Of a DNA stretch of 64,000 bases, positions 175 through 14,731 are shown piece by piece (the stretch's first letter is position 1; each line of letters starts with the position of its first letter). The translations under genes and the position numbers were made by a program. This DNA is from Antarcticimicrobium luteum (GTDB taxonomy: Bacteria > Pseudomonadota > Alphaproteobacteria > Rhodobacterales > Rhodobacteraceae): NCBI RefSeq assembly GCF_004358185.1, contig NZ_SMUV01000068.1, forward strand, positions 1 through 64,000, read 5' to 3'. A model generated the notes under the pieces. It ran no database searches. It was not told the DNA's origin and saw only the letters and a program-made list of their open reading frames with translations.

Positions 175-3100
175 ATGGCGCTTGGAACGTTGGACATTAT
201 CGGGCTTGCGGATACGGCCTACGGGCTGATCGAGGATCTGGTCGATCACGGATCGACCGAGGATTTCTGGGGCTCGTTCACCGACAGCAATGAGGCGATC
301 ATCAGCAAGCTGGACGAGATCAGCGCCAAGCTGGACGAAGCCGTCACCGAATTGCGCACCACCATCGGGTACGAGATCGAGGATGTTCAGCAACAGAACC
401 TGCTGAGTGCGCTGGCCCGTGCCGAAAATGCGCGCGACCTGCTGTCAAGCGCCGGGACAAGCGATGCGGTCGATCCCAGCACGATCATTTCCGACGCCTC
501 ACATGCCTTCCGCGATGTGCTGGCCCAGGCCAAGGCGATTACAGATCCCTCCTATGGAACGGTGCAGGCCGGATCGGTGATCCTGTCCAGTTTCGCGGTC
601 AGCTACGCGCTCAGCTCCCGGCTGGCCGTGGCGGCGACTTTCGAGGCGGATGAAGTCTCGGCAAACAAGATCACCCGCCAGATCGACGATGCGGCCGAGT
701 TCTTCGAAAACCTGCCCACGGTGATCACGGATCTGGCGCAAGCTTCGACCACGATCGAGATCGTCAAGCATTCGGAGACCCACGACGTCGTCTACAACGT
801 CAACGTCTACACCGGACAGGAAGCGACCCACACACTGACATACAGCTACTACACGCTGGATGCGTCGTTCCAATTCGGCGTCGAAACCGTCAAGCAGTCC
901 GTTTCGACCTATAGTGAAGCGGACTTGGCAAACGCCATCGAGCGGGTCAAGGGCATCAAGGAGACTTACCCAAGCCCCGATGACCTGAAGGAGGTCAGCA
1001 CGGGGCTCACCTTGGACAACCACGCGCTGCCCGAGTCCTTCGATTTTCCTGGCCGACCGGATTACTCTAAAAACTTGATCTTCGTGAACCTCACGACGGC
1101 TGACGGCAAAGCGCTGGCCGAACGTTATTTCGAAAAGGCGCTGATCAGCGAAGCGCTGAGCAAGGCTGGGCTTGGGGTCGATGGCAGCGCCAGTCTGGAC
1201 CTGGCCGCCAAGTACCGAACCCTGACCGATGGCAAGGAGCTGGTGGCCTTCGAGGCGCCGGGTGTGTCGAACGATGCCGAACTGCACGGCACCGCTGGCA
1301 ATGACCTGCTCGTTGGCAAGGGCGGCAACGATATCATCTGGGGCTATGGTGACAGCGATCTGATCCGCGGCGGCGGCGGCAACGACCTCTTGATCGGCGG
1401 CGACGGAGAGGATCGGCTGATCGGCGGCACAGGTGACGATAGCCTCGCAGGCGGTGCGGGCGATGATGCGCTGGAACCCGGCGCCGGCAACGACAGGGTC
1501 GTTGGCGGTGGCGGGTTCGATGTGGTTCGCATGGAAGGCAACCGCGAGGACTTTAATCTGACGTACACCCATACGGTGAAAACTTCCGTCAGTGCGGACA
1601 ACGGTCACGAATTAATCATGGAGTTCACGGGACCAACCGGCGAGGTTGACCAGTTGTCTTATGTTGAGCGTGTGTTCTTCGACGACGCAACGCTGAACGT
1701 TCTTTACGGCACCAGCGGCGTTGACGGCGCGGGGCGGGACACCATCAAGGGCGATTTCGAACTGGTGGTCCGTGTCGATGAGGACGGCACCAAGCACTAT
1801 CGCAAATTCGCGAGCGACGACCTGATCTTTGCCGGCGATGAAACCGGGAGCAAAGGCCCTGCGACGGGAGATGTGATTCACTCCGGCGGAGGGGACGATA
1901 TCGTGCATGCGGGGGCCGGTAACGATCTGGTCGAGGCGGGTACAGGCAATGACCTCGTGTACGGCGGAGCCGGCGCGGACCGTCTATATGGTGGGGTTGG
2001 TAAAGACACGCTCTTCGGCGGCGATGGCAATGACGCTCTGTACGGCGGAGCTGGAGACGACGTTTTCGACGGAGGTGCAGGCGTGGACTATGTCCACTTC
2101 CAAGCGTCCGATAGCCGTTACTTGCCTCTGTCCGACGCGCGCTTTGCCTATTCCTTCGCGGAGGGTGCCTTTCTCGTCGAAATGTCGGACGGGACGGACA
2201 CCTTGCGCGATATCGACAGGATCCGCTTCGCCGATCAGACCGGTATCGTTGTGGTCGATGAGGATGGCAGCTTTCCCAAGATAGACGTGAGCCCGTTTTC
2301 GTTCGGTCTCGTCTTTGTCGGCGACGGCGATGACACGGTGATCGGCACCAGCGGCGACGACTTGCTGGTTGGCGGCGCAGGTGACGATGAGATCGACGGC
2401 GGCGGCGGCGATGGCGATATCGCCGCGTTCTCGGGGCTCAGCACCGCCTATTCTATTACCTCGGAAGACGGCAAGTCCGTGATCGTCGAGGGGCCGGATG
2501 GGCGCGATGTTCTGCGGGGCATCGAAGTCCTGCAATTCGATGACAAGACCATCCCGTTGAATGTGATTGCCGGAACGCCCGACAGGGATACGCTGACGGG
2601 CACCGGTGACGACGACATTCTGGTCGGGCGCGGCGGCAACGACAGGCTGATCGGCAGGGACGGAAACGACATGCTGTTTGGCGGCGCCGGCGACGACATC
2701 GTCTACGGCGGCGCCGGCGCCGATGTCATGGTCGATGGTGCGGGCAGCGATTTCTATGATGGCGGCACCCCCGACGACCGCGTGGTCTTTTCCGGCCTTC
2801 GGGCCGATTTCACGTTCCTTGAACCGGCGGGCGACTATCACGGCAATCACGGGCACCGTGTCAGCCACCATGGCCAGATCGACGAGCTTGTAGAGGTCGG
2901 CTGGCTGATCTTCGACGATGCCGAAATGCGCGTCCATTTCGACCGTTCCGACACCGACGCGGCGACAGGCGACCGTAGTGCTGAAGTCTTCTTTGGCTAT
3001 GACGGCGCCGACAAGCTGATCGGCCGTGGTGGTGACGACGTGGTGTTTGGCAATGACGGAGATGACGGGATCTTGGCTGGCAGGGGCAACGACACGGCCC

Positions 3101-4778: not shown

Positions 4779-5234
4779 ATGCTTATGACGGGAAAGAATA
4801 TCGAAAACCTCATCATTTACCACATTCACAGGATTTCCCGTCAGTGGGGCCGACAGAGTGCAAATCTCTACGAACGTGAATTCGGATTGAAACTGTCAGA
4901 GGTATGGGTGCTTCAACTGATTGGCGACTTTCCGGATACGACCATCTCGCAACTTACCGGACATTCCCACATGGACAAGGCTGCGATCAGCCGCGCGGTC
5001 AGCGGGCTGGAACGGAAAAAGCTGGTGACCAGACTGGCCCAGCCGGACGACCGGCGGCTCATTCGGCTGGCCCTCTCCGCCGCCGGGCAAGAGGTCTATG
5101 CAAAGGTCGTTCCGTTACGGGAAGGGCGCCAGAAGCGCCTTGAGGCACGCCTGGACGCCGGCGATCGCGCCGCGCTGTTCCGGGCTTTCGACAAGATCTA
5201 TGCGCAGCTTGGTTCGGAGGTCGCCGATGATTGA
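4779..5234 (+). CDS. MarR-family transcriptional regulator
   Basis: 151 aa, normal family length. The winged helix-turn-helix spans about residues 35-100: ISQLTGHSHMDKAAISRAV is the HTH and QPDDRRLIRLALS the wing with the typical DDRR motif. Family members are dimeric repressors, usually relieved by small aromatic or phenolic ligands. The next gene overlaps its 3' end by 8 bp, so both are co-transcribed and the GMC oxidoreductase is the likely target. The start could also be the ATG at 4785; no strong ribosome site distinguishes them. Confidence 0.88.
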   Translation: MLMTGKNIENLIIYHIHRISRQWGRQSANLYEREFGLKLSEVWVLQLIGDFPDTTISQLTGHSHMDKAAISRAVSGLERKKLVTRLAQPDDRRLIRLALSAAGQEVYAKVVPLREGRQKRLEARLDAGDRAALFRAFDKIYAQLGSEVADD

Positions 5235-6972
5235 TGCACGGCTCAGAGGAAGAACGCCTGAAGGACAGGTCGCCCGGTTCGCCGGGCTGGATGGCTGTTT
5301 TTTCGATTATGCGGTGATTGGCGCGGGCGTGGCCGGCTGCGTTCTGGCCTCGCGTCTGTCGGAAAACCCGTCGAAAAGGGTTCTGCTGATCGAGGCTGGA
5401 GAGGACATGGCCCCGGGGCAGGAACCCCCCGATGTCCTGGATCCGCTGCCGATCTCCTTCGGCATCCCGGAACTGTCCTGGGCCGGTCTCAAAGCCGAGG
5501 TCGGGGTCAGCGCTGCTCATGGCGGCACCCCGCGGTCGCGGCGGTTTCTGCAGGGCCGCGGCGTTGGCGGCGGATCGCTGATCAACGGGTCGATCGCGTT
5601 TCGCGGCCAGCCTGACGATTATGATCGCTGGGCCGCACGGGGTGCCACCGGCTGGGCCTGGGAGGACGTGCTGCCCTATTTCCGCAGGCTGGAGGATGAT
5701 GCGGATTGCAATGGCCCGATGCACGGTCAGGCGGGGCCGGTGACGATCCGGCGAGAGGGACTGGAAAGCTGGAGCGCCTTCAGTCGCGCGCTGGCCGAGG
5801 GGGCGAAACGGGAAGGATACGCCGCGCTGGCCGATTACAATGGCGAATTCGGCGACGGCTACGGCCAGGTTCCGATGACCAACCTGCCCCATCGCCGCAT
5901 CACGGCCGCCAGCGCCTATCTGTCGGCAGAGGTGCGCCGGCGGTCCAACCTGACGATCCTGCCGGAAACCGAGGTTCAACGCGTGCTGTTGGACGGGCGC
6001 CGGGTAACCGGCGTTCGGATCAGTCGCGCCGGGGCGGTCGCCGAACTTTCTGTGCGGGAGGTGATCCTCTCCGCCGGAGGCATCTTCTCGCCGCTTCTGC
6101 TGCAAGCCTCCGGCATCGGCCCGGCAGGGTTCTTGCGGGGGCAAGGAATTGCCCCGGTCCTCGACCTGCCCGGAGTCGGTGCGGGGCTCAAGAACCACCC
6201 CAAGATCGAACTGGCGGTTCATCTGCCCGATGCCAGCCGGCAAGCGGCGGGGTTCCGCGCAATCGGCGAGATCTGCCTGCGCTATTCGTCCAGAATAGGC
6301 GCCAGCCAGCCGCATGACATGGGGCTGATGGCGATCAGCAAAAGCTCCTGGCACGCCATCGGCCAGCAGGTAGGGGCGCTGAGCGTGGCGCTGTACGATC
6401 CGCGCTCGACCGGCGAGGTCCGCATCGCCGGGTCGGGAGAGCCGCTCAGCGCCGCAAGGGTCACCTTCAACCTGCTGGATCATCAGGAGGATTTCGCGCG
6501 AATGGTCGACGGCCTCGATTTCGCGCTGCGGCTGCTGGAGCCGATGCGGGACGCGGGCGTCATCAACGATGTCTTCCTGCCCGATCCTCAGATGGTGGGG
6601 CGGTTCCAGCCCCGAACGCTTTCCAACCGCCTTGCCACTGCCGCGATCAACCCGATGCTCAAGCTCGGCCCCGTCCGGAAGGCGGCGCTGGGGCGCTCGA
6701 TCCTGGACCTGGCCGCGCTACGCAGCTCTGACGGGATGCGGCGCGCGCTGATCGCGGAGGCCACCGGCATGTCGCATCACGTCTGCTCGACCTGCGCGAT
6801 GGGGGGTGAGGGCGACCCCGCCGCCGTACTGGACCCGCAGTGCCGGGTGCGCGGGATCAAGGGGCTGAGGGTCGCTGATGCTTCGGCCTTTCCGGACATT
6901 GTGCGGGCCGGAATGTACATTCCTGTGATGATGCTGGCCGAAAGGGCCGCCGATCTGATCCTTAGGGGCTGA
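5227..6972 (+). CDS. GMC-family FAD oxidoreductase (choline dehydrogenase-like)
   Basis: 581 aa from the ATG at 5227. An upstream in-frame ATG at 5098 would run through the MarR gene and is rejected. The ADP-binding GxGxxG (VIGAGVAG) is at residues 29-36, and the GMC signature RGVGGGSLINGSIAFRG is around 112-128. The C-terminal block contains the conserved His518 (HVCSTCAMG) and VADASAFPDIV. GMC enzymes oxidise alcohols or aldols with FAD. Odd point: where most members have Asn or His as second catalytic residue (NTNAP-like), this protein reads GMYIP, placing Tyr564 there. That suggests an unusual substrate or altered chemistry. It is translationally coupled to the MarR gene. The substrate is unknown. 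Confidence 0.85.
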   Translation: MIDARLRGRTPEGQVARFAGLDGCFFDYAVIGAGVAGCVLASRLSENPSKRVLLIEAGEDMAPGQEPPDVLDPLPISFGIPELSWAGLKAEVGVSAAHGGTPRSRRFLQGRGVGGGSLINGSIAFRGQPDDYDRWAARGATGWAWEDVLPYFRRLEDDADCNGPMHGQAGPVTIRREGLESWSAFSRALAEGAKREGYAALADYNGEFGDGYGQVPMTNLPHRRITAASAYLSAEVRRRSNLTILPETEVQRVLLDGRRVTGVRISRAGAVAELSVREVILSAGGIFSPLLLQASGIGPAGFLRGQGIAPVLDLPGVGAGLKNHPKIELAVHLPDASRQAAGFRAIGEICLRYSSRIGASQPHDMGLMAISKSSWHAIGQQVGALSVALYDPRSTGEVRIAGSGEPLSAARVTFNLLDHQEDFARMVDGLDFALRLLEPMRDAGVINDVFLPDPQMVGRFQPRTLSNRLATAAINPMLKLGPVRKAALGRSILDLAALRSSDGMRRALIAEATGMSHHVCSTCAMGGEGDPAAVLDPQCRVRGIKGLRVADASAFPDIVRAGMYIPVMMLAERAADLILRG

Positions 6973-7020: not shown

Positions 7021-7371
7021 TCACGCCGACCACCAGCACGAGAAGCTGTTGGGCGACAGCATGACCGGGGCGTGGTAATGCCCCTGCCGTTCGGGAATCC
7101 GCATCCGGATCGCCATCTCCTCGACCACCTGCGGCGCACTGCGGGGGATTTCCCGACCCAGCCAGAAGCCGCCGTTGCTGATGATGAGTTCCAACCGGCC
7201 GTCCGCCGCGACGCGTTCCGAGGCGATCTCGCATTGCAGCCGTCCGCCGGCGTCGGTTTCGCCGACAAAGAGAGGCTCTCCGCCGGCTTGATTCCGCAGT
7301 TCGATGCCGACACCGGAGGCATGGGTGCCGTCGGTGCCGTTGAGGATATGGGTGGTGAATTTCAGCGTCAT
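7021..7371 (-). CDS. Transthyretin-like / 5-hydroxyisourate hydrolase-family protein
   Basis: 116 aa. The N-terminus (FTTHILNGTDGTHASGVGIEL) matches the THVLD..xGxPA start of the HIUase/transthyretin fold. The end (HYHAPVMLSPNSFSCWWSA) matches the HYHxPLLxSPxxYSTYRGS end in position. The catalytic C-terminal YRGS is replaced by WWSA, so urate-pathway activity is doubtful. The ATG overlaps the stop of the upstream ThDP-enzyme gene, so the two are coupled. The partner enzyme and the tricarboxylate transporter in the same operon suggest a hydrolase or binding role on an organic-acid intermediate. The function is unassigned. Confidence 0.75.
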   Translation of the reverse strand: MTLKFTTHILNGTDGTHASGVGIELRNQAGGEPLFVGETDAGGRLQCEIASERVAADGRLELIISNGGFWLGREIPRSAPQVVEEMAIRMRIPERQGHYHAPVMLSPNSFSCWWSA

Positions 7372-9092
7372 TCGATCGAGGCCTTGTCGCGCTTGTCCGA
7401 GGTGGCGGCGATGATCGGGCTGATCACGCCGCGAGTCTTGACGTTGATGCAGGCTGGCTTGCCGCTGGCGATGCCGCGTTTGACGGCGGCCGCGATGTCC
7501 TCGCGCCGAGTCACCAACTCGCCATAGCCGCCCAGCCCCTCGACCATACGATGGAAGGGAATGTCGCGGAAGTCGGTGGCGAAATGCTGACCGTTCTTGA
7601 ACAACCGCTCCTGCTGCTGGCTGATCGCGTCGAGCCCGCCGTTGTTGTCGATCACCACGGTGATCGGCAGCCCCTCCTGGAAGCAGGTCTCGATCGAGAG
7701 CCCGCCGGCAAGGAAGGCGCCATCGCCCGAAATCAGCACCACGTTGGAGCCGCGGTCGAGGTTCTTGGCCGACATGGCGAAGGGCACCCCGCAGCCGAGC
7801 ATGGAGTTGATGCCGGGATTCAGCATCCCCGCCAGCCGACCGCCGCGCCAGCCGATCATATTGACCGCGATCTCGGTCCAGAAATGGGTGTTGCCGCCGT
7901 CGAAGATCAGCCAGTCCCGCGGCCCCATCGCCCTTTGCACCTCCAGTGCCAGGTCCAGCGGGTGCACCTTGGCGCCTGCTTCCTTCGCTGTCTCGGCAGC
8001 GAGGTCGTTTTCCCATTGCTCGACCCATGCGCCGCGCCGCGCGCGCTGCTGGTCGAACCATTGCGGCCAGGCCCGGCCGATGCCCGCCAGCGCCTCGCAG
8101 AAGGCGCCCGGATCGCTCAGCAGCAGCTCGTCGGCGGGGCGGTTGAACTCCAGCTCTTCGTTGCTGCCGTTGATGCAGATGACCCGGGTCGAAGCGGGGA
8201 AGAACGGAGCGTTCCCGAAGTTCAGCGTGTTGTCCAGCTTACCACCGATCACCAGCACCAGATCGCTTTCGGTGATCGCGGGTTTCGAGGGCGGGTACTG
8301 GTGGAAATCGGCGAGCCCCATCCAGGGTTCGGCATCCTCGCCCATCAGCTTGCGGTGGCCGGGCTGGCCGTAGACCGGCAGGCGCAGCGCCCGCGCCGCC
8401 GCCTCCAACGCTTTCTCGCCGCCCGACCACCAGACCGAATGGCCCGCGATGATCACCGGCCGTTCAGCCGCCCTGACCTGTGCCAGCACGCGGTCGAGCG
8501 CGGCAGGCTCCGGCCAGGCGCGGGCGGGCGGGCGGGCCCCGTGGTCGAGCGGGCGCTCCTCGCGGCCCGCATCCTCGGGGAAGGAGGAGAACATGATATC
8601 CACCGGCACGCTCAGATGCACCGCGCCGGGATAGCCGGAGGTCGCCATGGTCCAGGCCCGGTCGACATATTCGCCGATCCGCGCGCCGTCGCGCACCTGC
8701 ACCGAATATTTCACCAGCGGTGCGGCGATGGCGACGTCGTCGATCTCCTTGAAGCCGCCGGCATTCTCGCGCTTCAGCGTCGAGGAGGAGGTGATGAAGA
8801 GGATCGGGCTGCGCTCTCCCAGCGCCTCCATCATCGCCGGCACCGCGTTGGCGAAGCCCTCGGGGCCCACGAAACAGACCGCAGGCTTGCGGGTGATCCG
8901 GGTATGGCCGTCGGCCAGATGGCCCGCCACCTGCTCGTGCGGCGTGTTGATCACTGGGATCTGGCATTCCATCATCCCCTCCAGCGCCGGGTTGCAGAAC
9001 CCGCCGGAGAGGGTGAAGACGTGATCCACCCCTTTTTCCTTCAACGCGCGGGCCAGGATGGCGCCGCCGCGGATGCGTGTCATGTCCTTCAT
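7368..9092 (-). CDS. Thiamine diphosphate-dependent enzyme, acetolactate synthase-like
   Basis: 574 aa, three-domain POX/AHAS architecture. The PYR domain is N-terminal, with the cofactor-activating Glu53 in TPHEQVAGHLADG. The PP domain is C-terminal, with the ThDP/Mg motif starting GDG at 456 and ending at Asn483-Asn484. Family enzymes decarboxylate or ligate 2-oxo acids. Lack of an AHAS small subunit and the operon partners argue against branched-chain biosynthesis. Having Glu53 distinguishes it from glyoxylate carboligase, which lacks this residue. It is preceded by tctC with a 159-bp gap containing a hairpin, and followed with overlap by the transthyretin-like gene. A catabolic 2-oxo-acid decarboxylase or lyase is likely; the substrate is unknown. 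Confidence 0.82.
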   Translation of the reverse strand: MKDMTRIRGGAILARALKEKGVDHVFTLSGGFCNPALEGMMECQIPVINTPHEQVAGHLADGHTRITRKPAVCFVGPEGFANAVPAMMEALGERSPILFITSSSTLKRENAGGFKEIDDVAIAAPLVKYSVQVRDGARIGEYVDRAWTMATSGYPGAVHLSVPVDIMFSSFPEDAGREERPLDHGARPPARAWPEPAALDRVLAQVRAAERPVIIAGHSVWWSGGEKALEAAARALRLPVYGQPGHRKLMGEDAEPWMGLADFHQYPPSKPAITESDLVLVIGGKLDNTLNFGNAPFFPASTRVICINGSNEELEFNRPADELLLSDPGAFCEALAGIGRAWPQWFDQQRARRGAWVEQWENDLAAETAKEAGAKVHPLDLALEVQRAMGPRDWLIFDGGNTHFWTEIAVNMIGWRGGRLAGMLNPGINSMLGCGVPFAMSAKNLDRGSNVVLISGDGAFLAGGLSIETCFQEGLPITVVIDNNGGLDAISQQQERLFKNGQHFATDFRDIPFHRMVEGLGGYGELVTRREDIAAAVKRGIASGKPACINVKTRGVISPIIAATSDKRDKASIE

Positions 9093-9208
9093 GTGTCAGT
9101 CCTTCCGTAGGGTTCGGGCACGGCTCCGCCAGGGCGGGTGCCGTGCCCGCCGGGACTGGACAGGATCCGAGCCGGTTTCAGGGGTCTGGGATGGGGGCGG
9201 CCTTCAGA

Positions 9209-9236
9209 CCCGGCCCGCTGCGCAAGGCGGGCCGGG
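9209..9236 (-). terminator. Hairpin downstream of tctC (attenuator-like)
   Basis: A perfect 10-bp stem (CCCGGCCCGC at 9209-9218 with GCGGGCCGGG at 9227-9236) and 8-nt loop, 15 nt after the tctC stop. With no T-run it more likely protects or partly terminates the transcript than ends it, giving more binding protein than downstream enzyme. Confidence 0.45.
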
Positions 9237-9251
9237 GGACTGCGGCCGCGG

Positions 9252-10226
9252 TTATTGCGGTTCGATACCGGCGGCCTTCATGATCGCCAGATTGCTTTCA
9301 AGCTGGGTGTACATCTCTTCACGCGCCTGCGCCGCGTCGCGGTAGTCGATCGGGGCGAACATGCTGGCTGCGACCTCGCGGAAACCTTCGTTCCCGGCCA
9401 CATCGGCCAGCATGTCCGACAGCTTGGCCAGCACGTCCTCGGGCAGGCCTTTCGGCGCGATCAGAACGGTTTGCAGATCCATACCGATGGGAATGCCGAG
9501 TTCGTTGATGGTGGGAACGTCCGGGCTGCCGATGTTGCGCCGCGCGGTGAGCGCCGCGATCACCTTCATCTGGTCGGGATAGCGGTGGTGGATGCCGCCC
9601 GAATAGGCCAGCATCGCCTGCCCGCCGAGCAGCGCGTTGATCACGCCCTGGCCGCCGTTGACCGGCAGGATGCCGATATCGAGATCATTGGCGCGGGCGA
9701 TCTCGGTGGCGAAAAACCGGGTCGAGGCCGAGACCGGCGCGTAGAGCGTGCCGGGGTTGGCGCGCACATAGTCCAGCATGCCCTGGAAATCGTCGAACGG
9801 CGCCGAGGCCGGGGCGACCAGCGCGGAGTCGAAGCTGGTGAGCATCCCGGCATAGTCGAAATCGTCGATCGAGAATGGCACCACCTTTTGCAGCGCCGGG
9901 GTCAGGGTGATCGTCTGCGACGGGTTGAACTGCAACGAGTAGCCGTCCGCCGGCATCGCCCGGAGCCCGGCGAGCGCGACGCCGCCCGCTGCGCCGGGCT
10001 TGTTGATCACATTGACCGGCACGCCCAGCTCTTCCGACATCGCGGTGGCCAGCGCCCGGCCCAGCAGGTCGCTCTGGCCGCCGGGGTTGAAGCCGATATA
10101 GAGCGAGATCAGCTTTTCCGGCCATTCCGCCAGCGCCGGCCCGGCGCCGAGGCCCAGCGCCATCGCCGCGGCCACGACCGCACCCTTAAGCGCGTCGTGG
10201 ATATTCAGTTTCATTGGCAGTTTCAT
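9252..10226 (-). CDS. tctC: Tripartite tricarboxylate transporter substrate-binding protein (TctC/Bug family)
   Basis: 324 aa. A signal peptide is evident: basic start, hydrophobic AVVAAAMALGLGAG, and a cleavage-type PALA-E. The mature chain starts WPEKLISLYIGFNPGGQSDLLGR, the typical Bug-family opening with the GGxxD ligand loop. Members bind carboxylates such as citrate, tartrate or aromatic acids in the periplasm and deliver them to TctAB. The ATG overlaps the tctA stop (ATGA), so the two are coupled; an ATG four codons later is an alternative start. The ligand cannot be read from sequence. Confidence 0.9.
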   Translation of the reverse strand: MKLPMKLNIHDALKGAVVAAAMALGLGAGPALAEWPEKLISLYIGFNPGGQSDLLGRALATAMSEELGVPVNVINKPGAAGGVALAGLRAMPADGYSLQFNPSQTITLTPALQKVVPFSIDDFDYAGMLTSFDSALVAPASAPFDDFQGMLDYVRANPGTLYAPVSASTRFFATEIARANDLDIGILPVNGGQGVINALLGGQAMLAYSGGIHHRYPDQMKVIAALTARRNIGSPDVPTINELGIPIGMDLQTVLIAPKGLPEDVLAKLSDMLADVAGNEGFREVAASMFAPIDYRDAAQAREEMYTQLESNLAIMKAAGIEPQ

Positions 10227-11743
10227 TGCGTTTTCTCCTCCGATGAATTGAGACGTTTGCCGTTCGCCCGTGCCGCCTTGCCGAAGCGCCAGACGGCCGC
10301 CGCCGTCAGCAGCAGGAAGATCAGCGCCAACGGATGTTCGATCAGCCGCGCCGGCTCTCCGTGCAGGATGCGGATCGACTGCCGAAGGCTGAGCTCGACG
10401 GCCGGCCCGACGACGAAGCCGATCAGGAAGTTGACCACCGAAAAACCGAGCCGGAGCATCAGCACGCCGAGCACGGCGAAGACCACCATGACCTGGATGC
10501 CGAACACCCCGCCGCCCTCGATCCAGGCGCCGACGGCGCAGAGGAACAAGACGCTGGGCACGATGACCCGGATCGGCACCAGGGTGATGCGGGCGAAAAA
10601 GCCCTGGAAAACCAGGCCGATGATCAGAAGCGCCAGGCTGGCCGCGATCATCGCGGCATAAATGCCGCCGACCAGCCGCGGCTGCTGCGCGAACATCAGC
10701 GGCCCCGGCGCCAGCCCGTGCAGCATGAAGGCGCCGATCAGGATGGCGGCGATGACGCTGCCCGGGATGCCGAGGGCGAACAGCGGGATCAGGCTGGCCG
10801 GCACCACCGCGTTGTCGGCGCTTTCCGCCGCGGCGACCCCCTCGATGGCGCCCTTGCCGAAGCGTTCGGGTGTCTTCGAGCGGCTGCGCGCCACGCCGTA
10901 GGACAGGAAGGAGCCGACGCTTGCCCCCAGGCCGGGCAGGATGCCGATGATCACCCCGATGCCGGTGCCGCGCAGGATCGAGGGGGCGGCGCGGCGCCAG
11001 TCCTCTGCGGTCACGCTGTTCTGTTCGCGGCCCTTGCCGATCTGCATCGTGCGGGTCTGGCTGTCGATGCCGTGGCGGTTGCCCGCCTGCAGGATCATCT
11101 CGGACACCGCCAGCATGCCGATGGCCATTGGGATCAGCGGGATGCCGTCGAACAGCCGGTATTCGCCGAAGGTCAGCCGCGGCAGGCCGGTTTCGATCTC
11201 CAGCCCGACGGTGGCCGCGAGAATGCCCAGCAGCGCCGCGATGATGCCCTTGGGCAGCGAAGCCGCCGACAGCCCGCCGACGAAGGTCAGCGAGAAGACG
11301 AGGATGGCAAAGATATCGACCGGCCCGATCAGCAGCGCGTAGGAGGCGATCGGTTCGGCCAGCACCACCAGAACGATGGTCGCGCTGAGATCGCCGATCA
11401 CCGAGGAGAACAGCGCCATCTTCAGCGCCTTGCCCGCCTTGCCCTGCCGCGCCAGCGGATAGCCGTCGAGCGCGGTGGGCGCCGAGGACGGCTCGCCCGG
11501 GACGTTGAGCAGGATGGCGGAGACTGCGCTGCCCGCGGCGCTGCCCTTGGCGATGCCCAGCAGGAAGGCGATGGCCGGCAGCGCCGGCAGCGTGAAGGTC
11601 AGCGGGATGGCGATGGCCACCGCAGTGGCCTTGCCCAGACCCGGCAGGGCCCCCACCAGGTAGCCGATGCCGACCCCGGCGAAGATCCAGAACAGGGTGG
11701 CGGGGGTGAGGATGTCCGTCAGGCCGAGGAAAATCTGGTCCAT
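10223..11743 (-). CDS. tctA: Tripartite tricarboxylate transporter large permease TctA
   Basis: 506 aa, about 12 hydrophobic segments. It has the family's conserved ALPGLGKATAVAIAIPLTF near residue 35 and its second-half repeat GILPGLGASVGSFLSYG. TctA is the large membrane subunit that carries substrate with an ion gradient. It lies 9 bp downstream of tctB and overlaps tctC, giving the standard B-A-C order. The C-terminal cytoplasmic tail is basic. Confidence 0.93.
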   Translation of the reverse strand: MDQIFLGLTDILTPATLFWIFAGVGIGYLVGALPGLGKATAVAIAIPLTFTLPALPAIAFLLGIAKGSAAGSAVSAILLNVPGEPSSAPTALDGYPLARQGKAGKALKMALFSSVIGDLSATIVLVVLAEPIASYALLIGPVDIFAILVFSLTFVGGLSAASLPKGIIAALLGILAATVGLEIETGLPRLTFGEYRLFDGIPLIPMAIGMLAVSEMILQAGNRHGIDSQTRTMQIGKGREQNSVTAEDWRRAAPSILRGTGIGVIIGILPGLGASVGSFLSYGVARSRSKTPERFGKGAIEGVAAAESADNAVVPASLIPLFALGIPGSVIAAILIGAFMLHGLAPGPLMFAQQPRLVGGIYAAMIAASLALLIIGLVFQGFFARITLVPIRVIVPSVLFLCAVGAWIEGGGVFGIQVMVVFAVLGVLMLRLGFSVVNFLIGFVVGPAVELSLRQSIRILHGEPARLIEHPLALIFLLLTAAAVWRFGKAARANGKRLNSSEEKTQ

Positions 11744-11752
11744 TTCGTCACC

Positions 11753-12190
11753 TCAACCGATCGAACTGCCGAGGATGACATAGATCAGCACATAGCCCAG
11801 AAGCAGCATACCCCCGGTCAGTGCCGACAGCATCACCGGGTTGCGTTCGCCCATCAGCAGACCTCCGCCGGAGACCAGAAGCGCGCCGGCGCCAAGCGGC
11901 CCGACGAAGGGCAGCAGCCAGGTCGCGCCCAGCATCAGGGCGGGAACCGCGATCAGCGCCAGAAGCTCGGAGCGGGCGATCCGGTCGATGCCCGCGCTGT
12001 GGCCGCGCGCGGCGCGGACCAGGATCACCAGCGCCAGCGCCAGGATGCCCCAGAGCGCCGCCTGCGGCACCAACCGGGGCGACAGGGCGCCGCCGAATCC
12101 CTCGGGGATCTGCGCGGGCACGACGAGGAACAACGCCGCGGCCACGAAACAGATCAGGATCGAAGCGATCAGAATGTCGGCTTTTTGCAC
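11753..12190 (-). CDS. tctB: Tripartite tricarboxylate transporter small membrane subunit TctB
   Basis: 145 aa with four predicted membrane segments and a central basic loop (RAARGHSAGIDRIARSELL), the usual TctB layout. I chose the GTG at 12190 because GGGAGG lies 6 nt upstream; a TTG at 12208 is possible. It is the first gene of the five-gene minus-strand operon and faces the divergent LysR gene across about 150 bp, so LysR control is likely. Confidence 0.85.
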   Translation of the reverse strand: MQKADILIASILICFVAAALFLVVPAQIPEGFGGALSPRLVPQAALWGILALALVILVRAARGHSAGIDRIARSELLALIAVPALMLGATWLLPFVGPLGAGALLVSGGGLLMGERNPVMLSALTGGMLLLGYVLIYVILGSSIG

Positions 12191-12301
12191 GTCGCCCTCC
12201 CAGTACAACGCAGGTCCCTGTGCCGGATGCTCTCCTCACCCGGTTGTCTCATCTGCTTAGAGGCATGGCCGCATTTGTTGAAATACTATTTCGGCGCGTT
12301 A

Positions 12302-12320
12302 CCATGCCGAAAAGGCATGG
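12302..12320. promoter_or_regulatory. Candidate LysR operator (inverted repeat)
   Basis: CCATGCC (12302-12308) and GGCATGG (12314-12320) form a perfect 7-bp inverted repeat with a 5-nt GAAAA centre. It sits 20 bp upstream of the LysR start in the divergent region with tctB. This fits autorepression by a LysR protein; the T-N11-A core was not assigned. Confidence 0.4.
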
Positions 12321-12340: not shown

Positions 12341-13267
12341 ATGGATATCAAGCTTCACCAGATAAAATGCTTTCGCGAGGTGGTCGAAAGCGGCAGTTTC
12401 TCTGCGGCCTCTCGCAGCTTGGGCATAGCCCAGCCCGCGCTGTCCCGGAAGATCGCCGATCTGGAGACGGAACTCGGCAAGCCGCTGCTGAACCGCAGCT
12501 CGCGCGGGGTCAGCCTGACGCCCGCCGGTGAAAAGTTCCTGCGCCACTGCCGCCTGATCCTGCTGCAACTGTCCCGCGCGGAACGCGAAATCGCGCTCGA
12601 CGGCAGCAAGGCCGCGGACGAGGTCGTCTTCGTCGTGCCACCCGCGCTGAGCCTCTTTGTGGCGGCGCATCTGGTCAAGGCAGTGGTGACCGATTACCCA
12701 AATATCCACGTGGTCTGCCGCGAAACCCACTGGGACGATGCCCGCCACCTGATGGAGAGCGGCCAGGGCGATGTGGCGCTGGTCACCAACGGGCATCTGT
12801 TCGACGGCTGCGAGGCCGAACGCTGCGTGGTCGACAGCCTGTATTTCGGCGGGCGCATCGACGAAACCCACCACGGCGGCGCGCCTGTCACCCTGGAAGA
12901 GATCGCCGGGCTGCCGCTGATCCTGCCGGGAGGCAGGTTCCTGATCCGCCGCACCCTGGAGGCCACCGCCCGCGAGAGGGGGCTCGACCTGAACATCCGG
13001 CACGAGGTGAATTCCGTACCGCTGCTGGCCACCTATCTGGAACAGGGGTTGGGATATACGATTTCGATCTGGCAGACCTTCTTCGACGGGGTGGCGCGCG
13101 GGCGTATGTTCGCCCGGCCGCTGCACCGGCCCAACTTTCAGCGGATGCTGACCATCGTCTCTCAGTCGCAGGCCAACCAGAGACCGGCGGTGTCCATCGT
13201 CCACGATTACCTGCGGCGGCGGGTCAGGGAGCTGCACCGCGCGGGGATTATTCGCGGGAGTGAATGA
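12341..13267 (+). CDS. LysR-family transcriptional regulator
   Basis: 308 aa. The N-terminal winged HTH (residues 1-60) has the diagnostic CFREVVESGSFSAASRSLGIAQPALSRKIADLE pattern in its usual place, followed by a periplasmic-binding-type effector domain. It is divergent from the tctBAC/ThDP operon, the classic arrangement for activation in response to the transported acid or a derivative. The family normally represses itself and activates the divergent operon. A GGGGG element precedes the ATG. Confidence 0.92.
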   Translation: MDIKLHQIKCFREVVESGSFSAASRSLGIAQPALSRKIADLETELGKPLLNRSSRGVSLTPAGEKFLRHCRLILLQLSRAEREIALDGSKAADEVVFVVPPALSLFVAAHLVKAVVTDYPNIHVVCRETHWDDARHLMESGQGDVALVTNGHLFDGCEAERCVVDSLYFGGRIDETHHGGAPVTLEEIAGLPLILPGGRFLIRRTLEATARERGLDLNIRHEVNSVPLLATYLEQGLGYTISIWQTFFDGVARGRMFARPLHRPNFQRMLTIVSQSQANQRPAVSIVHDYLRRRVRELHRAGIIRGSE

Positions 13268-13288: not shown

Positions 13289-13576
13289 TCAATGCGTGAC
13301 GTGGGTGCATCTTGACCGATGAACCGCAAAGATCCGCTTGGCCGCGTGACGCTGCTTGCGATGGACTGCCTTATCCGCGTCCAGCCAGCTGTCGATGATA
13401 TCGGTGAACCCGTCCAACTTTGGACGCTTGATCGACGCACTCCGCCGATAGCCAGGCGGCTCAGAGAAGGCCAGCATCTTCCCAATCGTCCCACGTGACA
13501 TCTTGAAATGCTGCGCCGCCGTCCATGCGCTCATGCCCTCGGCGCACGCCAGACGAACCTTGGGATGTAATTCCAC
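13289..13576 (-). pseudogene. IS21-family transposase (IstA) N-terminal fragment
   Basis: 95 aa containing GMSAWTAAQHFKMSRGTIGKML (helix-turn-helix) and EPPGYRRSASIKRPKLDGF. This is the conserved N-terminus of IS21 IstA proteins, normally about 500 aa. The DDE catalytic domain and the IstB ATPase gene are absent. The frame ends in unrelated sequence after KRIF. It is a dead insertion-sequence remnant. Residual left-end IS21 sequence may extend to about 13745. Confidence 0.8.
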
Positions 13577-13745
13577 GGTATAGATCTCCTCGCCCTCCCT
13601 GCTGCCGCACGGAGGGAAAAGTGGACGGATTTTACTCCGCCCGCAGCAGGACTATCCCGCCGCTACGGTGGGCCAATTTTGCACCGCCGTTTTCATTTCC
13701 TGCACGCGCATCAAGCGCCAGCTATCGGATCAGGCCGTTTTTCAT

Positions 13746-13762
13746 GGCTTTGTTGCACAAAT
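13746..13762 (+). repeat. IS5-family terminal inverted repeat, left
   Basis: GGCTTTGTTGCACAAAT, identical to the reverse complement of 14779-14795. Confidence 0.88.
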
Positions 13763-13797
13763 GGAGGTCTGACCGTACGCCCCCTTTCCCGGGACGG

Positions 13798-14731
13798 ACC
13801 TATCCCACGGGCTCAGTGACAGGGATGCCGAGAGCGGTGTAGCTGTTCAGCACAGCGATGCGGACCTGCAGTTCGGCGACCTGTCGGTCGAAGTCCCTAG
13901 CCATCAGAGATTGGCCGGCAGTTTGATACAGTTCATCTTACTCTCGACGCGGCTTCGGCGGTGATATCCGCTCCATCGTCGCCACAGGGCACGGCCCAGG
14001 TATCGCGACGCATTGACCGCTTCGTCGCGGGCGATAGCGCCGGCGCTTGTGGGTTTCCACGGCTTGGCGTTCCTGCGCGGCGGGATGACAGCGGCAGCGC
14101 GTCGGGCGGCGATCGCCTCGTGACATTCGCGGGTGTCATAGGCGCCATCGGCTGTCACTGATCCGATCTGCTCGTCTGCCGGGATCTGGTCCAGAAGTTC
14201 AGGCAACATGGGTGCATCACCAATGTTGCTGCCGGTGATTTCGACCGCCCGAACCTCAAGCGTTTCCTCGTCGATCCCGATATGTATTTTGCGCCAGATA
14301 CGGCGTTTCGGGCCGCCGTGCTTGCGCGCGTTCCATTCGCCTTCCCCTTCAGATTTGATGCCGGTGCTGTCGATCAGCAGATGCAGCGGGCCCTTGGCGC
14401 CGCGGTAGGGGATGTTCACATTCAGCGTCCGCTGGCGGCGACACAGGGTGCTGAAATCCGGTACCCGCCAGTCCAGCCCGACCAGTCGCAGGATGCTTTC
14501 GACGAACCCGGTGGTCTGCCTGAGTGGCATGCCGAACAGCACCTTCATTGACAGGCAGGTCTGGATGGCGGCATCGCTGTAGGTCTGCTGTCGGCCACGC
14601 CTGCCTGTCGGTGTGGCATCCCAGCTCATCTCGGGATCGAACCAGATCGACAGCGATCCGCGTCGCTTCAACGCTTCATTGTACGCCGACCAGTTCGTGG
14701 TCTTGTACTTCGTAGGGGCCCAACTGCTCAT
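13798..14731 (-). pseudogene. IS5-family transposase, C-terminus frameshifted
   Basis: The main frame (13904-14731, 275 aa) has the IS5-family DDE order: Asp in LLIDSTGIKSEGEGEW, Asp in TADGAYDTRECHEAI, and Glu in SRVESKMNCIK. After MNCIKL the frame stops early. The shifted frame from about 13910 continues MARDFDRQVAELQVRIAVLN to a stop at 13798, the usual end of this transposase. One missing base around 13915 therefore truncates about 45 residues. The catalytic residues are upstream of the lesion, but the element is probably inactive or impaired. Confidence 0.8.

Follow-up and report, generated by a model that had tools for sequence, protein, structure and literature searches.

A conserved gene pair for a ThDP enzyme and an HIUase-fold protein, and a putative catabolic module of marine Alphaproteobacteria

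The tct operon of Antarcticimicrobium luteum and its surroundings

The window, a 64,000-nucleotide stretch of contig NZ_SMUV01000068.1 (assembly GCF_004358185.1) of Antarcticimicrobium luteum, carries a run of genes in the order tctB-tctA-tctC-ThDP enzyme-TTRL (Table 1), the last gene encoding a small transthyretin-like protein of the 5-hydroxyisourate hydrolase (HIUase) fold. An earlier note on this DNA had described tctBAC followed by an acetolactate-synthase-like enzyme and an overlapping HIUase-fold gene, and all five genes indeed lie there on the minus strand. Homologues of TctA, TctB and TctC are all present together; TctA and TctC score above their Pfam cut-offs, and TctB falls short (25.5 bits against 29.1), yet its position in the operon is correct. 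Overlaps of 4 bp join tctA to tctC and the ThDP gene to the TTRL gene, the latter being an ATGA in which the start codon of TTRL lies over the stop codon of the ThDP gene, while a spacing of 159 bp separates tctC from the ThDP gene. The overlap had been taken to imply stoichiometric production of the two proteins; it is real and suggests translational coupling, but stoichiometry is unproven.

Table 1. Features of the operon and of the DNA on either side of it
Feature	Position	Strand	Remarks
MarR regulator	4779-5234	+	convergent with operon
GMC oxidoreductase	5218-6972	+	choline-dehydrogenase/MftG-like, below equivalog cut-offs; convergent with operon
TTRL (transthyretin/HIUase-fold, 116 aa)	7021-7371	-	PF00576 50.5 bits
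ThDP-dependent enzyme, 574 aa	7368-9092	-	three TPP_enzyme Pfam domains
tctC, tripartite tricarboxylate transporter solute-binding protein	9252-10226	-	PF03401 102.7 bits
tctA, large membrane subunit	10223-11743	-	PF01970 447.9 bits
tctB, small membrane subunit	11753-12208	-	start TTG 12208 or GTG 12190; PF07331 25.5 bits
Inverted repeat, perfect 7-bp, CCATGCC-GAAAA-GGCATGG	12302-12320		divergent promoter region, just before LysR start
LysR-type regulator, divergent from operon	12341-13267	+	PF00126 and PF03466
Transposase-like ORFs	13289-14731		just past LysR gene

The divergent LysR-type gene probably encodes the regulator of the tct operon, and the inverted repeat before it may be the LysR operator; a similar LysR gene (2119-3054) is divergent from tct in Hoeflea alexandrii. 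The transposase-like ORFs beyond the LysR gene make the operon appear to border an insertion-sequence region. On the other side of the operon, the convergent GMC oxidoreductase and MarR genes were not found beside the pair in Hoeflea or in genome G293.

The ThDP enzyme and TTRL

The ThDP enzyme has N, M and C TPP_enzyme domains, a catalytic Glu53 in a conserved HE and a GDG...NN cofactor motif, and is assigned to a subfamily of its own within the benzaldehyde lyase/2-hydroxyacyl-CoA lyase (HACL)/acetolactate synthase superfamily. It fails the acetolactate synthase equivalog TIGR00118 (194.4 against 538.35 bits) and reaches none of the NCBIfam equivalog cut-offs listed. Its nearest structures are those of benzaldehyde lyase and HACL; a structure model of the enzyme has doubtful domain packing (TM ~0.54, rmsd ~16) and served for family assignment only. 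Glyoxylate carboligase is not favoured, since the enzyme has the catalytic Glu53 and scores against Gcl structures are low. A sister ThDP enzyme, 34-35% identical and without TTRL, occurs in genome G1132 (L141 5734-7470), among consecutive genes for an OpuAC-type betaine ABC transporter and a GMC oxidase, with a choline-sulfatase-like gene nearby.

TTRL exceeds the gathering cut-off of the transthyretin family PF00576 (25.3 bits) and fails that of the HIUase equivalog TIGR02962 (53.2 against 87.45 bits). The AlphaFold2 model, computed from 32 members of the family, reaches a mean pLDDT of 93.6, and its best Foldseek matches are HIUases. The C-terminus of the window protein reads SCWWSA, as against STYRGS in canonical HIUases; the YRGS tetrapeptide is missing from 33 of 33 TTRL sequences and found in 27 of the 27 canonical HIUases compared. 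The earlier note had seen a change of the catalytic YRGS to WWSA, of which the loss of YRGS holds throughout the subfamily, but the fixed tail is xWxS, the second Trp of WWSA being present in only 18 of the 33. On the other hand, the catalytic HIUase residues His8, Arg44 and His100 are invariant in all 33. They are the equivalents of His7, Arg41 and His92 of the Klebsiella enzyme kpHIUH, which activate water and polarise the carbonyl, while the C-terminal tail of HIUase binds and orients the urate ring (PMC8272043). Newly fixed in TTRL are His17 (Pro in 26 of 27 canonical sequences), Trp113 (Tyr in 27 of 27) and Ser115 (Gly in 27 of 27). As the catalytic residues are retained and the grip on the substrate is replaced, TTRL has probably remained a hydrolase while taking on a new substrate. 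Among the roles that had been proposed for it, to hydrolyse, carry or tautomerise the product of the ThDP enzyme, the retained His/Arg/His favours hydrolysis.

A second, canonical-scoring HIUase is present in 31 of the 32 TTRL-cluster genomes searched, as well as in the genome of the window, where it ends in YRGS and lies on contig C24 (128114-128449; L038 9600-9956). Its neighbours there read as purine-catabolism genes: allantoinase/PuuE, ureidoglycolate lyase, a purine permease and a PuuD-like urate oxidase. This coexistence lends no support to the possibility, named in the earlier note as its own refutation, that TTRL is a normal HIUase of purine breakdown. The lone searched cluster genome having TTRL and lacking a canonical HIUase is G1150, from the SAR116-like family and 98% complete.

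Conservation of the pair and the wider module in relatives

In 33 of 33 loci examined, the gene directly downstream of the ThDP gene, in the same orientation, is that of TTRL; these loci span four alphaproteobacterial families (Rhodobacteraceae-type, SAR116-type and two others) and include divergent genera with different surroundings. The two genes usually overlap or lie only some bases apart: their spacing in relatives varies from -4 to +67 bp, with an overlap of 1 or 4 bp in 17 of the 27 loci measured. The distance matrices of the two proteins are correlated (rho 0.81, permutation p 0.001). With such adjacency and covariation, the survey speaks against a merely sporadic co-occurrence, and the pair is a real unit. 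Members of the ThDP subfamily, taken as proteins sharing at least 60% identity with that of the window, occur in 21 of the 397 genomes sampled from the window's family, and a class-wide sample of 385 added five genomes. Among 61 genomes of a family for which the label SAR116 is an inference, at least 21 have the subfamily and 23 have some match at the search cut-off. No subfamily member was found outside the window's family in a phylum-wide sample of 398 genomes. When TTRL was used as a query against the first 148 relatives, only three besides the window (G026, G003 and G035) matched past the YRGS position, and the ThDP gene is present in all three. Hoeflea alexandrii was the only match among named organisms in a genome-contig scan. 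In the plasmid collection, matches to TTRL were only distant and mostly annotated as uraH, and no ThDP relatives were found at 1e-60.

The commonest gene order elsewhere is FMN 2-hydroxyacid oxidase, ThDP enzyme, TTRL and a GcvT-family gene, here called DmdA2. The FMN oxidase is found in 27 and DmdA2 in 29 of the 33 loci, and the distance matrices of the module genes correlate with rho 0.66-0.88. The motifs holding the catalytic Tyr, Arg, His and Arg of the FMN oxidase (QLY; VDxPxxxxRxRD; HGGR) are kept in most of the 27 members, QLY and HGGR in nearly all.

DmdA2 matches SAR11 DmdA (3tfh) at 5e-113 and passes the DMSP demethylase model NF009133 (551 against 410 bits for the protein of L035); examples above the cut-off lie at 8030-9142 in L035 and at 5060-6211 in L036. 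In the tree, DmdA2 forms a group distinct from canonical dmdA present in those genomes, with moderate support (88/71), and it carries the diagnostic residues Y32V (29 of 29) and E63Q (28 of 29) relative to canonical DmdA. Five genomes (G003, G026, G412, G387 and G556) have both DmdA2 and a canonical-clade DmdA, from which DmdA2 is taken to be a DmdA paralogue. The sole DmdA of the window genome is canonical and lies on contig C29, followed by a gene read as acuI (dmdA-acuI). The Tyr of DmdA2 at the position of the DMSP-binding Trp197 of SAR11 DmdA was dismissed as proof of a new substrate, since canonical Roseobacter-type DmdA proteins encoded in these genomes have Tyr there too. A dedicated MttB-type methyltransferase accompanies the module in some lineages: a cluster-specific MttB group is encoded within ~10 kb of the cluster in eight of the nine genomes that have it. 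These orthologues are at least 51% identical and have no in-frame stop; for all other MttB proteins in the same genomes the figure is at most 42%.

The window belongs to a subclade with Hoeflea alexandrii (L003) and G293 (L065), which has tct genes and a cluster without FMN oxidase or DmdA2; the MttB orthologue is also missing. The cluster of G759 (L085) likewise lacks FMN oxidase and DmdA2. In L003 and L065, tctA is conserved upstream of the pair. The tripartite transporter, counted as a part of the system in the earlier note, turned out to be confined to this subclade, with ABC or TRAP systems elsewhere.

A proposed pathway, its alternatives and related systems

The gene set is best read as a catabolic module for a 2-hydroxy or 2-oxo acid, methylated in most loci, of which the window would have a shortened version; the probability of this reading is put at about 0.55. 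FMN oxidases of this type convert L-2-hydroxy acids into 2-oxo acids, on which many ThDP enzymes of the POX/AHAS type normally act. Thus the FMN oxidase, whose family and catalytic residues are evident, would produce a 2-oxo acid from a 2-hydroxy acid, and the ThDP enzyme, by its superfamily, would cleave or decarboxylate it. TTRL might then hydrolyse either the product or the substrate of the ThDP enzyme, with His8 and His100 activating water, Arg44 polarising the carbonyl, and Trp113 and His17 refitting the pocket. DmdA2, together with the dedicated MttB-type protein in some lineages, would demethylate a sulfonium or ammonium centre of the same compound, since the presence of both in the clusters suggests a methylated sulfonium or ammonium compound. 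The betaine transporter, GMC oxidase and choline-sulfatase-like genes beside the sister ThDP enzyme were counted in favour of the module reading. In the subclade of the window, tctABC would import a carboxylic acid that enters at the ThDP and TTRL steps, and no methylated substrate is indicated for the window because DmdA2, FMN oxidase and the MttB orthologue are all absent there.

The leading concrete candidate for the substrate of the full module, proposed tentatively, is 4-dimethylsulfonio-2-hydroxybutyrate (DMSHB) or a close relative. In algae DMSHB is the 2-hydroxy precursor of DMSP, a marine osmolyte. Its best fit is to the steps of the FMN oxidase and DmdA2, and DMSHB by itself leaves TTRL unexplained. 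Ruegeria pomeroyi DSS-3 is reported to lack DMSHB decarboxylase activity. Knowledge of the DMSHB decarboxylation step is still lacking (PMC11306096). An entirely new pathway for methylated 2-hydroxy acids of the sea, for example DMSHB, consisting of FMN-dependent oxidation, ThDP-dependent decarboxylation, hydrolysis by a non-purine HIUase-fold enzyme and a second DmdA directed to DMSHB or DMSP, is conceivable and is held more tentatively still. Homarine, suggested by the marine distribution and by N-methylglutamate-type genes near L080, was rejected for want of a literature link, and mycosporine-like amino acids, suggested by the combination of a ThDP dione hydrolase and a demethylase, for want of supporting genes or papers.

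Neighbours outside the core set differ strongly between genomes, and some of them point to other substrates. Uptake systems vary among TTT, TRAP and Dpp-type ABC transporters, Dpp/opine-type binding proteins being encoded near 13 of the 32 loci clustered. Peptidase S51 genes occur in six loci; in the SAR116-like L082, L084, L140, L142 and L144, the region 5' of the cluster repeatedly carries S51-like genes, and some of these have an MttB-type neighbour. Isolated neighbours are an asparaginase gene adjacent to the cluster in L085, an Asp/Glu/hydantoin racemase gene in L003, a hydantoinase-like amidohydrolase gene in L077, and arginase-family genes in L074 and L077. A substrate resembling an amide or a peptide would agree no less well with the mixed transporters and with the amidases, peptidase S51, hydantoinase or agmatinase near a few loci. 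It is possible, if doubtful, that the substrate of the module is a nitrogen compound resembling an amide, a hydantoin or a peptide, with TTRL opening a lactam or hydantoin ring and the demethylases acting on N-methyl groups. We know of no precedent for the transfer of an amide N-methyl group to folate, and the relatives of DmdA demethylate sulfonium groups. Ring opening would be close to the ancestral chemistry, HIUase being a lactam hydrolase (PMC8272043), but such genes, the transporter aside, are each found in few loci and none belongs to the core set.

A shade less probable is a role of TTRL as an accessory or regulatory subunit of the ThDP enzyme, without catalysis of its own, which would sense or hold the substrate; IlvN/IlvH are small subunits of this sort in acetohydroxyacid synthase. 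The strict 1:1 pairing, often with translational overlap, recalls ilvBN, and transthyretin itself is a precedent for a fold able to become a carrier (PMC4324301); however, the invariance of the HIUase catalytic residues in all 33 sequences, together with a new invariant His, would be superfluous in a carrier. It is very improbable that TTRL works as a plain HIU hydrolase or as an isozyme in the breakdown of urate or methylated urate: family, fold and the conserved His/Arg/His would agree with it, but the universal loss of YRGS, the score below TIGR02962, the separate canonical enzyme in nearly all genomes and a core set without purine genes stand against it. Finally, a chance or hitch-hiking neighbourhood without a common pathway, which the variability of the non-core neighbours might suggest, is hardly credible in view of the adjacency at every locus over divergent genera, four families and different surroundings, and of the matched distance matrices.

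The reading as a catabolic module for a 2-hydroxy or 2-oxo acid points to an undescribed pathway in marine Alphaproteobacteria for the breakdown of a small, probably methylated marine metabolite. The pairing had been called undescribed, and nothing joining the two proteins was found in the literature searched, which was mostly without subscription journals; the combination, with an apparently neofunctionalised HIUase and a DmdA paralogue, is apparently undescribed there, while its parts belong to known families. The module would thus be a conserved, apparently new catabolic unit of Rhodobacteraceae-type and SAR116-type bacteria of the sea, and TTRL, having kept the catalytic residues and lost the urate-binding tail, could prove to be the first hydrolase of the HIUase fold with a non-purine substrate. 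DmdA models applied to count DMSP demethylation in the ocean will also count DmdA2, which may act on something other than DMSP, and metagenomic dmdA counts with an NF009133-type model may take in this paralogue. Named genes are offered as well for what becomes of DMSHB and related compounds, a matter still poorly understood; if the DMSHB route is true, bacteria that do not make DMSP would gain a step from DMSHB to DMSP or to MMPA, for which the enzymes are mostly unknown.

Each component resembles a known system and departs from it. TTRL is like 5-hydroxyisourate hydrolase (UraH/PucM/HIUase) in fold, length and catalytic residues, and unlike it in the xWxS tail, the His at the position of Pro17, the sub-cut-off score, the linkage to a ThDP gene and the canonical copy alongside. 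The ThDP enzyme shares the three-domain architecture, Glu53 and GDG...NN with the benzaldehyde lyase/HACL/acetolactate synthase superfamily, whereas it is only ~26% identical to solved members and its subfamily has an invariant FKEIDD and a C-terminal SIE. All three components of the TctABC tripartite tricarboxylate transporters are present in the window; in contrast to typical TctABC, they are tied to catabolic genes, and other transporters take their place in most relatives. DmdA2, found in relatives and not in the window, belongs with the DMSP demethylase DmdA to the folate-dependent GcvT-type demethylase family, although it forms its own group with Y32V and E63Q and is sited in the ThDP-TTRL cluster. 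DsyD of Gynuella DsyGD, a DMSHB decarboxylase, is a ureidoglycolate-lyase-like domain of PF04115 (PMC11306096); the module would share with it the net conversion of DMSHB to DMSP, if the DMSHB reading is right, but that family was not found in the core set.
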